From: an uncultured Sulfolobales archaeon
GTDB lineage: Archaea > Thermoproteota > Thermoprotei_A > Sulfolobales > NBVN01
Assembly: GCA_938073905.1 (NCBI GenBank)
Contig: CALJEN010000005.1
Span: 130,667-194,666, forward strand
Direction of reading: 5' to 3'
Length of the DNA stretch: 64,000 nt
The notes below the pieces were generated by a model that ran no database searches, was not told where the DNA came from, and worked only from the letters and a program-made list of their open reading frames with translations. The translations under genes and the position numbers were made by a program. This document shows positions 32,485-35,159 of this stretch, in pieces; the first letter of the stretch is position 1; every line of letters begins with the position of its first letter.

Positions 32485-32724
32485 CTATATTTTCTTCGAA
32501 GAGGTCTCCCTCCTCCTCTCAAGGAGGTCCTCGAGCTCTCTGGCGAGCTTCAGCGACTCGCTGGCGACCTCCTTGGAGCCCCTGTCGAGAAGCATTCTGT
32601 AGAACCTGGCGGCGCACCTACTGCTGTGGAAGGCTATGCTCCTGTCCCCGATCCTAACGACTATGCCCTGTCCCTCCGGGAACACACGACCGCACACGAC
32701 GCACGTGTGCCTGTGGACCCGCAC
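32485..32724 (-). CDS. L24e/TRASH-like zinc-ribbon protein
   Basis: 79 residues. TCVVCGRVFPEGQGIVVR...IAFHSSRC matches the layout of ribosomal protein L24e (CxxCGxxIxPGxG...FCSSKC), but the second pair is HSSRC, so the likely zinc ligands are C-C-H-C. A helical tail of about 30 residues follows. It may be a divergent L24e or a lineage-specific zinc protein. Genes for S3Ae and Pcc1 are adjacent. Confidence 0.6.
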   Translation of the reverse strand: MRVHRHTCVVCGRVFPEGQGIVVRIGDRSIAFHSSRCAARFYRMLLDRGSKEVASESLKLARELEDLLERRRETSSKKI

Positions 32725-32867: not shown

Positions 32868-33488
32868 TCACGAGGTGGGCTTTCGCGCTACTATGGACGC
32901 GGACACTAGACCCGAGGACGTCCGGAGAGCTAGGAGCTTAGACTTGTATATCTCGGCCTTCCTGACCGGGTAGACCTTCTTGGCGCGCGACATTAGCTCT
33001 GTGGCTAGGTCTCCGAAGACCATGGCCTTGACGAAGTCGTCGAAAGTGCTCTTCTGGGCCCACTCGCTCAGCGTCTGGAGTATGATCTTCCTGATGGCCC
33101 TCCTCTGGCTGGCGTTGCAGTTGTACGTCGTCAGAACGAGCCCCGTGACCCTCAGCACGTATCCGTCGCTCGTCGTGACGTCCACTATGCCGGCAATCTT
33201 GGAGGACCTCCTCCTTATTATCGACTTAACGTAGTCTCTGGAGAGCTCGTGACCCTTGAACCTCGTGTACGCGTTCTCGTCGTCGTGTCTGTAGACCTGG
33301 AGGTGGAGGTGCACGTAGTGTTTGGTGAAATCTCCGGTGAGGTCGAAGAGCGTGGTCTCCACGACCCTCCCCAGGAGCTTCCAGCCCTCGTCAGCGGGGA
33401 TGCTCCCCATGGGCACGCTCCCGAAGATCTCGGGAGCTAGGACGGTGTACCACTTCTTCGCTTTCTTGACCCTCGTGGCTGTCGACAC
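32868..33488 (-). CDS. rps3ae: 30S ribosomal protein S3Ae (eS1)
   Basis: 206-residue archaeal/eukaryotic eS1 of the small ribosomal subunit. The N-terminal KKAKKWYTVLAPEIFG and the internal YTRFKGHELSRDYVKS are hallmark segments. GTG start three bases after the pcc1 stop. A TATA element (CTTTTAAC, about 33521-33528), lying inside the 3' end of pcc1, could also give a separate near-leaderless transcript. Confidence 0.96.
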   Translation of the reverse strand: MSTATRVKKAKKWYTVLAPEIFGSVPMGSIPADEGWKLLGRVVETTLFDLTGDFTKHYVHLHLQVYRHDDENAYTRFKGHELSRDYVKSIIRRRSSKIAGIVDVTTSDGYVLRVTGLVLTTYNCNASQRRAIRKIILQTLSEWAQKSTFDDFVKAMVFGDLATELMSRAKKVYPVRKAEIYKSKLLALRTSSGLVSASIVARKPTS

Positions 33489-33491
33489 TCT

Positions 33492-33839
33492 TCACTCCTT
33501 AGCGCTGGTAGCGGGCAAGGAGTTAAAAGCTTTTAGCTCGGCCCCGGAGCCGGACTGCCGCCGCTCCTCCCGCTCCGCAGAGCCCACCAGCTTCCGGACG
33601 AGCTCTGCCAAGAGGATTACCTCGTTTAGGATGGAGCCCAGGGTCAGGATGCCGTCGGCCGAGCACCCCGCCGAAGACACCTCGTAGACGTAGCACCCGC
33701 TCTCGGAGTAGCTCCTCAGCGAGAAGCCCCTCGGAGGGACGTCGTCCGGACTGAGGGACTCGACCAGGGTTCTCGAGAGGGGGTTCCCGTAGCATAGCCT
33801 CAGCCTGGCCCTCAGCTCCAAGATCCCAGGCTTGCCCAC
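33492..33839 (-). CDS. pcc1: KEOPS complex subunit Pcc1-like
   Basis: Small dimerising subunit of KEOPS, which makes the tRNA t6A37 modification. The core LRLCYGNPLSRTLVESLSPD...SADGILTLGSILNEVILLAEL matches the Pcc1 fold: first strand, PDN-type turn, and a final helix with LxTxNS-like residues. The frame extends to 33917, but a TATA element (CTTATAGGG, about 33869-33877) implies the GTG at 33839 (115 aa). Linkage to rps3ae is common in archaea. A Ser/Gly/Glu-rich tail follows the domain. Confidence 0.75.
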   Translation of the reverse strand: MGKPGILELRARLRLCYGNPLSRTLVESLSPDDVPPRGFSLRSYSESGCYVYEVSSAGCSADGILTLGSILNEVILLAELVRKLVGSAEREERRQSGSGAELKAFNSLPATSAKE

Positions 33840-33940
33840 TCTCCGACCTCGACACGCTTGGTCACCGCACCCTATAAGGTGAGAGCCCCCGAGAACCGGG
33901 CTCCGCGACCCGGCCACCGGCTCCCCCAGAGATAGCGTCG

Positions 33941-34345
33941 CTACTCCGGCCTCACCCTCCTCGCTATCCTACTTCTAACTATGCCCTCCGAGGGATCTAC
34001 GTAGAGCTGCCAGTACTCTATCAGGTCTCTGCCTATGTAGGCCTCGAACAGTCCCCCGCCGCTGACGGCCCTGGCTACGTGTATCACCGTCGGAACCGGG
34101 ATCTCGTACCCGCCGAACACCACCCTGTCGACTACGCAGACGGAGAAGAGGGAGTACCTCCCCGCACCGGGCACCTCGACCTCGAGCCTCTCCGGCAGGT
34201 CTACCTCCTCGTAGCACCTGAGGTCGTTCGCTACGGACGCGTCTATGAACGACACCTTGACGTCCCTAGACACGGAGGCCCTCGCGTAGCTGAACCTGTT
34301 CCTCCTGAAGAGCCCCAGCAGGAGCGTTGCCTCCGGCCTACCCAT
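33941..34345 (-). CDS. Possible degenerate retropepsin-like (clan AA) protein
   Basis: 134 residues. The C-terminal EAYIGRDLIEYWQLYVDPSEG (102-122) matches the LLGxDxLExxGLxVDPxxG end of archaeal retropepsin-like aspartyl proteases. At the expected catalytic site (residues 35-37) the usual Asp-Thr-Gly reads Asp-Ala-Ser in FIDAS. It may be an altered protease or a binding domain derived from one. TATA element CGCTTAAATC at about 34374-34383. Assignment rests on pattern only. Confidence 0.4.
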   Translation of the reverse strand: MGRPEATLLLGLFRRNRFSYARASVSRDVKVSFIDASVANDLRCYEEVDLPERLEVEVPGAGRYSLFSVCVVDRVVFGGYEIPVPTVIHVARAVSGGGLFEAYIGRDLIEYWQLYVDPSEGIVRSRIARRVRPE

Positions 34346-34406: not shown

Positions 34407-35159
34407 TCAGAGAGCCATCATGCTGTGCATGAACCTGTAGAGCAGCTCCGGGTGCTCCAGGGACAGCCGGGACGTAAGCCTGCTCAAAGCTCCAGGCCTC
34501 TCGGCGGAGCCCGGGCACTTCAGGTCCCCGAGCATCCCAGAGACGAGGGCGTAGGCCAGGACGTCCACTCTAGGGACTGAGTACAGCGGGACCAGGAGCT
34601 CGAGCTCACCGCACCTGGCGTAGACCCTGGGCTTCGCGAGCTCACCCCCTCGGACCAGCTCCTTCAGAAAGGCGGTGAGCAGGTCGTCTAGAGTTCCCGG
34701 GAGGGCTACGACGTCGACCCTCACGCCCGGATCGCAGCACGCCCTCCCGCGCAGCACGAGCTCTTCGACTGGACTCCCGCGCAGCACCGCGAAGACGACG
34801 TCCCGGCAGCATCTCCTCACCTCGTAGGCGCACTCCGGCTCCTCGTCGCTGGAGACTATCCCGATCACCGTGCCCCCATATCCTTGCTCTATCTCGTCGA
34901 GCAGCTGCGCCAGCACCAGGCTCTCGACAATCCGTGCGGGGTCCACGAGAACAGCCACCTTGAGTCCGACGCCTCTTCTGCTGAGCAGAGAGAAGGAGCT
35001 CTTGACCTTCCTAGCGAGGTCTCTTCGCAGGCAGACCGCGCAGAGCCTCTCGCCTGAGTGCCTCCTGAAGTAGCTGGCCGGACGCCTCCCGCAGCTGGAG
35101 CACCTCGCGACCTCCTCCGCGTCCAACACCCTCGAAGAGCACCGCAGCGACTCCGACAC
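34407..35159 (-). CDS. Ncs6/CTU1-like tRNA thiolation protein lacking the PP-loop (CTU2/Ncs2-like)
   Basis: 250 residues built like the NcsA/TtcA tRNA sulfurtransferase family. An N-terminal zinc module has Cys20, Cys23, Cys40 and Cys43; the CLRRDLARKVKSSFSLL helix follows; and a C-terminal domain has KCPGS...R resembling the family's later Cys/Arg region. At residues 68-85, where active enzymes have the ATP-binding SGGKDS, it reads VAVLVDPARIVESLVL, so catalysis is not expected. Eukaryotic Ncs2 (CTU2) is such an inactive partner of Ncs6. GTG start; TATA (GTTTAATAG) near 35182-35190. Confidence 0.65.
   Translation of the reverse strand: MSESLRCSSRVLDAEEVARCSSCGRRPASYFRRHSGERLCAVCLRRDLARKVKSSFSLLSRRGVGLKVAVLVDPARIVESLVLAQLLDEIEQGYGGTVIGIVSSDEEPECAYEVRRCCRDVVFAVLRGSPVEELVLRGRACCDPGVRVDVVALPGTLDDLLTAFLKELVRGGELAKPRVYARCGELELLVPLYSVPRVDVLAYALVSGMLGDLKCPGSAERPGALSRLTSRLSLEHPELLYRFMHSMMAL

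Follow-up and report, generated by a model that had tools for sequence, protein, structure and literature searches.

A class-wide family of putatively inactive NcsA paralogues in archaea and its possible pairing with one active NcsA type

A gene in the window, the 64,000-nucleotide stretch of archaeal DNA analysed here, raises the question of whether archaea hold an inactive paralogue of the tRNA thiolase NcsA next to an active one, as eukaryotes hold Ncs2 (CTU2) next to Ncs6 (CTU1). According to passages of PMC10067955, M. maripaludis NcsA forms a homodimer, on which Ctu1/Ctu2 was modelled, and duplication of the homodimer was proposed as the origin of the eukaryotic pair. The same passages set a single NcsA in archaea against Ctu1/Ctu2 in eukaryotes, describe Ctu2 as having lost the Fe-S cysteines but kept the zinc sites, and report a failure to obtain Ctu1/Ctu2 in recombinant form. 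In parts of PMC10450187, Ncs2 is described as having lost its enzymatic function, as essential for thiolation, and as forming a more stable complex with Ncs6. An initial annotation of the window had named the gene an archaeal counterpart of Ncs2/CTU2; its features and those of its neighbours are collected in Table 1.

Table 1. Features of the gene, its protein and its neighbourhood in the window
Feature	Position	Strand	Remarks
Ribosomal protein S3Ae	32868..33488	(-)	PF01015, E 5.5e-66
Possible Pcc1-like ORF, start uncertain	33492..33917	(-)	No Pfam/NCBIfam match
134-aa protein, no Pfam family, directly downstream of D	33941..34345	(-)	Beside D in 2/5 congeneric neighbourhoods listed
PP-loop-less NcsA paralogue (family D)	34407..35159	(-)	250 aa, GTG start; ORF present
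Family-specific motif HPELLYRFM (residues 236-244), Glu238 at NcsA Gly	34428..34454	(-)	Alignment
Former PLR-x-x-Y-E segment, here PLYSVPRVDVLAYA (residues 191-204)	34548..34589	(-)	Alignment and D profile
Former H-N/T-x-D-D segment, here PGTLDDL (residues 154-160)	34680..34700	(-)	Alignment and D profile
Strand and loop at the SGGKDS position of NcsA, here KVAVLVDPARIVES (residues 67-80)	34920..34961	(-)	Alignment
N-terminal zinc module Cys20-x2-Cys23 ... Cys40-x2-Cys43	35031..35102	(-)	Read in translation; Cys kept across family D

The window protein and its family

The window protein is homologous to NcsA beyond chance. A Pfam scan gave PF22082 (TtuA_LIM_N) at 20.8 bits, under the cut-off of 27, and otherwise one chance match, and scanning genome contigs with the single protein gave no relatives. 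In a phmmer search of the PDB the protein matched M. maripaludis NcsA (6scy) at E 2.4e-5, and profile A1, built from 32 of its relatives, matched 6scy over the whole length at E 4.2e-17 and TtuA PH0300 at E 2e-16, TilS being weaker. The AlphaFold model (pLDDT 89, pTM 0.86) has a predicted fold that superposes on 6scy with Z 18.1 and rmsd 3.2 over 216 residues and on TtuA with Z up to 19.6, within an NcsA/TtuA range of Z 17.6-19.6; the C-terminal part of NcsA/TtuA past about residue 256-269 finds no counterpart in it. Cys20, Cys23, Cys40 and Cys43 stand where the initial annotation had placed them and, in alignment, fall on the zinc cysteines at the N-terminus of NcsA, and the module reads LC-x2-C, not LC-x2-HF as in TtuA. 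The loss of SGGKDS claimed there is equally borne out, D73-P74-A75-R76 ... E79-S80 taking the place of S-G-G-K-D-S. Its remark that the overall length fits the family is not quite right: the protein has 250 residues against about 320-330 for NcsA here, and possesses neither an Fe-S CxxC segment nor a C-terminal zinc ribbon.

These losses recur across the relatives of the window protein, referred to as family D, in an alignment of 50 D members and 34 intact relatives. SGGKDS is present in 34/34 intact relatives and in 0/50 D, and the catalytic His of the H-N/T-x-D-D segment in 34/34 and 1/50, respectively. None of the 50 D members has all three Fe-S cysteines together, and the window protein has gaps there. 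At the N-terminal zinc module, the four cysteines are found in 48, 49, 50 and 48 of the 50; the C-terminal ribbon cysteines, absent from the window protein, persist in 25-26. Positions proper to D are P154 (window numbering), found at no less than 90% in profile A1, and a newly fixed Glu238 (48/50), where 31 of the 34 intact relatives have Gly. Furthermore, the PP-loop was gone from all of 20 further D loci that were read, 19 of them in new genomes, which brings the total to 69 genomes. Pfam agrees with this reading, in that PF01171 was matched by 16/16 NcsA proteins of D-bearing genomes, was not among the 25 of 47 families listed for 32 D members, and was found in none of 10 D proteins scanned singly (7 from those 32); no CTU2 match stood among the rows listed for D proteins. 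By its sequences the family is catalytically dead: PP-loop, HxxDD signature and all three Fe-S cysteines are gone, and the N-terminal zinc module and predicted PP-ATPase fold are kept. The earlier view of an inactive paralogue inside the NcsA family is upheld.

Because pairwise dN/dS among D genes is 0.11-0.37 in 11 of 13 pairs, with 2 saturated, and 0.275 between the window gene and its nearest relative, D is read as being under purifying selection and functional rather than decaying. The family is not uniform. In family f6 D is shortened to 184 residues. The zinc module is partly lost in two members (L067:7689-8465 and L083:7385-8266), and in one single-contig genome that is 99% complete (G066, L261:109-926) D lies in two overlapping frames of 126 and 169 residues, from either a frameshift or a sequencing error.

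Distribution and ancestry of family D

With the window protein as query, matches were found in 53 of 60 genomes, its own included, and with profile A1 in 207 of 214 genomes of the order and in 118/118 near-complete ones; both counts mix D with intact NcsA, and the two were told apart by reading individual loci. By such reading, D was found in 69 genomes of the class of the window, Sulfolobaceae included, with a PP-loop in none. Every family from f1 to f11 has one or more genomes in which D was read, in f7 and f9 outliers only, and D was also read in 3 of 5 genomes of class members outside the order (G215, G216 and G218). In the phylum outside the class, where more than 100 genomes were searched, the PP-loop is present in 22/22 loci read; family D was found only in the class of the window. 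Family f11 was anchored to Sulfolobaceae by the record of Sulfolobus sp. UBA167, in which its version of D finds a match. The f11 protein is extremely divergent, and its AlphaFold model (pLDDT 89.7) aligns with Z 15.4 to TtuA and 14.1 to NcsA. Read together, the sequences indicate an ancient, class-wide family of dead NcsA paralogues that is inherited within families. No description of a class-wide dead NcsA paralogue was found in the open-licence papers searched.

Monophyly of D was recovered in three trees, with support of 99 in 68 rows, 100/100 in 61 rows and 100/100 in 81 rows. The 68-row tree left out 19 of 87 rows, namely near-duplicates together with several D that were among the shortest or most divergent; the 61-row tree was obtained from that set by removing seven more long-branch D; the 81-row tree held 13 of the 50 D, 12 of the 16 rows of profile A2 (described below) and the newly read intact rows minus 7. 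D stands apart from the TtuA clade (100/100) in the 61- and 81-row trees. In the 81-row tree it groups with canonical NcsA of other classes (97/95), and the order's own active NcsA, termed N-type, forms a separate clade (98/96). In approximately unbiased (AU) tests, the first data set gave p 0.30 for D with N and p 0.088 for D with TtuA, and the second gave p 0.33 for D with X and p 0.047 for D with N, a borderline rejection given little weight because this test constrained D with N but omitted the rows of f6 and f12, which fall together with N. An origin of D from TtuA was considered as well and is disfavoured by the trees, the AU value of 0.088 being no firm exclusion. Since D and N are not recovered as sisters, a single duplication giving rise directly to both subunits is not demonstrated. 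The branches of D are very long, and for this reason the claim on its origin was limited to a single one: D arose once, probably within the NcsA part of the family, and no later than the base of the class.

Gene neighbourhoods and co-occurrence with NcsA types

In its neighbourhoods, of which 32 were examined and 31 counted (in L082 D lies outside the cluster), D is the direct neighbour of the thermosome gene in 12 and separated from it by one small gene, c6, in 5, so that the two stand together in 17/31. Beyond thermosome and D, the reading frames c11 and c5 and a ribonucleotide reductase gene follow in several (thermosome and reductase were named by eye). The thermosome side is the probable ancestral place of D. 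In the genus of the window, D has been relocated, and the order D, 134-aa protein, possible Pcc1, S3Ae is kept in 2 of the 5 congeners listed. The initial annotation had placed the gene beside S3Ae and the KEOPS subunit Pcc1; the Pfam match upholds S3Ae, and the Pcc1 identity rests on likeness seen by eye, no Pfam match having been obtained up to E 10 and no NCBIfam match up to E 1. D and N are not adjacent in the stretches examined. Several small reading frames of these regions are conserved without a Pfam match in the examples tested, namely c6 (about 115 aa, upstream of D; L058-L065, L068 and L069) and, near D in many loci, c5 (about 280 aa, with a CPxC...CxVCG motif) and c11 (about 125 aa). 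In the window itself, positions 32485-32724 encode a 79-aa L24e-like zinc protein upstream of a helicase gene (PF01246 at 16.9 bits, under the cut-off).

Whether the window genome holds an active NcsA besides D was asked with profile A2, made of 16 NcsA sequences, all from D-bearing genomes. In its own assembly (G000), which is 79% complete, the search found no intact NcsA, only a TtuA-type gene on contig C11 (157 bits) and the zinc part of the window gene. Intact NcsA is present in 6/6 congeners, where it directly adjoins an ABCE1-like reading frame (named by eye) whose protein is 76-86% identical among them. ABCE1 is essential in archaea. Both the ABCE1-like gene and a second gene flanking NcsA were searched for in G000 and are missing as well, so that an assembly gap explains the missing NcsA better, and the NcsA region would be absent from the assembly. 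The intact NcsA that the initial annotation had asked for elsewhere in the genome is thus present in all congeners, not in the assembly itself.

The A2 search covered 122 genomes, namely those of the order with a completeness of 90% or more and that of the window; the tally covers 121, with the window's own omitted. N-type matches (399-559 bits) were obtained in 86 genomes, lower-scoring intact matches (236-282 bits) in 33 (f6 3, f7 6, f9 24), and TtuA-type matches only in 2. D matched at another place in 86/86 genomes with N-type NcsA, in 1/33 with other intact NcsA (G035 of f6, with a 184-aa D) and in 1/2 with TtuA-type matches only; D presence here means match positions from profile searches, the missing PP-loop having been read in 69 genomes, and the counts are phylogenetically non-independent, with only about three within-family contrasts independent. 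As all A2 sequences come from D-bearing genomes, the bimodal NcsA score is partly built in, and the tree and the outlier genomes were therefore examined.

Among the outliers, G183 (f7) and G120 (f9) hold D and an N-type NcsA (405 and 424 bits) against 236-276 bits in their D-less relatives. Outside the order, D occurs with N-type NcsA in G215 and G218 (450 and 449 bits). The two f12 genomes without D have an NcsA at 262 and 269 bits; in G018 (f1, genus g5; 70% complete) D was not found and NcsA scores 237 bits. G216 (99% complete) breaks the rule, having D and an NcsA at only 256 bits, outside the N clade. N-type NcsA is present and D was not located in G184 (76% complete), and in G088 (90% complete) and G168 (78% complete) D is present and the NcsA search gives a TtuA-type match only. 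No D was found at 20 thermosome loci, a frequent site of D, in 10 D-less genomes; absence of D from f7 and f9 is judged from these loci and from the A1 matches listed, which a very divergent D could escape. The low-scoring NcsA proteins are not one clade: those of f6 and f12 stand beside N (84/84), those of f7, f9 and genus g5 of f1 form the O-type, and the G216 copy is weakly placed (88/70). Family f6 combines a diverged NcsA beside N in the tree with its shrunken D, and O-type NcsA apparently replaces N-type in f7, f9 and one f1 genus. The O-type copies of f7, f9 and one f1 genus (L211-L218 and L170) carry a Cys3His zinc module with C-x2-HF as the last pair and form a clade of their own. The matches show D to co-occur with one particular active NcsA type, the N-type, and the within-family contrasts point one way.

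Possible role of D and the rival explanations

Against known systems, D shares with NcsA (6scy) the fold, the N-terminal Cys4 zinc module and the clade, but it is without the PP-loop, Fe-S cysteines and HxxDD signature, and the window D also without the C-terminal ribbon. With TtuA (PH0300 and T. thermophilus TtuA) it shares the fold, whereas TtuA has the LC-x2-HF zinc module (in the archaeal rows read), other catalytic residues and a separate clade. Ncs2/CTU2 resembles D as an inactive paralogue of the same enzyme whose Fe-S cysteines are gone, whose zinc sites remain and which is accompanied by an active paralogue, the zinc site shared by the window D being the N-terminal one only. Passages of PMC4014090 report SGGXXS as retained in CTU2, but no D row has it, and D was found in one archaeal class only. 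The counterpart proposed at the outset stands as an inactive NcsA paralogue accompanied by an active NcsA in all 86 near-complete N-type genomes, and is not supported in the sense of common descent.

Based on the finding that D accompanies N-type NcsA in 86/86 genomes and other NcsA types in 1/33, D was read as a partner of N, and it is on balance probable, by analogy, that D, as an archaeal analogue of Ncs2/CTU2, partners N-type NcsA without taking part in catalysis. D would be the non-catalytic subunit of a wobble-uridine 2-thiolase, in which an active N-type protomer pairs with D as a heterodimer and N adenylates and thiolates U34. As the scaffold half of this heterodimer, D may stabilise N, position the asymmetric tRNA, or both, as is thought for Ncs2 with Ncs6, and a stabilising role would be natural in thermophiles. 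Such a pair would have arisen independently of the eukaryotic one, and lineages with the different, presumably self-sufficient O-type NcsA would have neither N nor D. In a more tentative scenario, quite possible though less than evenly favoured, a heterodimeric active/dead U34 thiolase arose twice, the second time in this class of thermophilic archaea and independently of Ncs6-Ncs2, D descending here from the lineage's canonical NcsA and N from another NcsA lineage, with both lost on takeover by the O-type.

A different job for D, for example as a zinc- or RNA-binding factor for protein folding, ribosome assembly or KEOPS, with its co-occurrence with N due to shared ancestry, is an alternative of some substance, if an unlikely one. 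The thermosome is near D in over half of the neighbourhoods counted, with c5 and c11 rather than thiolation genes beside it, D precedes S3Ae in the window genus, and loss in f7 and in f9 could each be one event; this reading, however, predicts neither N and D together in the f7 and f9 outliers nor the failure to find D where the O-type is used. Partnership of D with TtuA in U54 thiolation, in place of NcsA, is improbable: TtuA-type genes do occur in D genomes, that of the window included (L002), but they are also found in D-less ones (e.g. L225 and L226), so that TtuA does not track D, and D groups with NcsA and apart from TtuA, with the AU result again short of a firm exclusion.

That D is a true orthologue of CTU2/Ncs2, the split into active and inactive forms being older than eukaryotes and inherited by them, is more improbable still. 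The NcsA fold, the lost Fe-S cysteines and the retention of zinc sites and an active partner would suit it, but every locus read in the phylum outside the class has its PP-loop, D falls inside archaeal NcsA in trees that held no CTU2, and the SGGXXS described for CTU2 in the passages cited above is gone from all D read. A parallel origin is likelier than a shared one because D was found only in the class, groups with archaeal NcsA and has lost SGGXXS; D is thus probably an independent invention and no CTU2 orthologue, as seen in trees that held no eukaryotic sequence. Least credible of all is a decaying NcsA pseudogene kept by chance. The very high divergence, the frameshifted copy in G066 and the f6 shrinkage speak for it, but frames are open in nearly all members read across the class, and the low dN/dS, the newly fixed Glu238 and the retained zinc cysteines oppose it; pseudogene decay was rejected on dN/dS and class-wide conservation.

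The single-enzyme picture of archaea would be complicated by a dead NcsA kept throughout the class, in Sulfolobaceae and their relatives; it would also be an independent replicate of the eukaryotic step from homodimer to pair, in organisms with genetics, and would make a thermostable pair available to structural studies.

A minor observation concerns the surroundings of NcsA in the six congeners of the window genome, all of which have a reading frame of about 261-270 aa beside NcsA and the ABCE1-like gene (L180:3612-4364 and L184:3354-4154, with homologues in L181, L182, L183 and L185). The two tested resemble a SAMP1/Urm1-like carrier (NF041918 at 42-43 bits, cut-off 60; Pfam Urm1/ThiS above cut-off) and contain an in-frame Cgi121-like KEOPS part (NF011465 at 28-33 bits, cut-off 40), so that the Gly-Gly of the sulfur carrier is internal. 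Near NcsA in the same region, L180:8894-11371 is an 826-aa secretion-type ATPase reading frame with a candidate intein interruption, as judged by eye.
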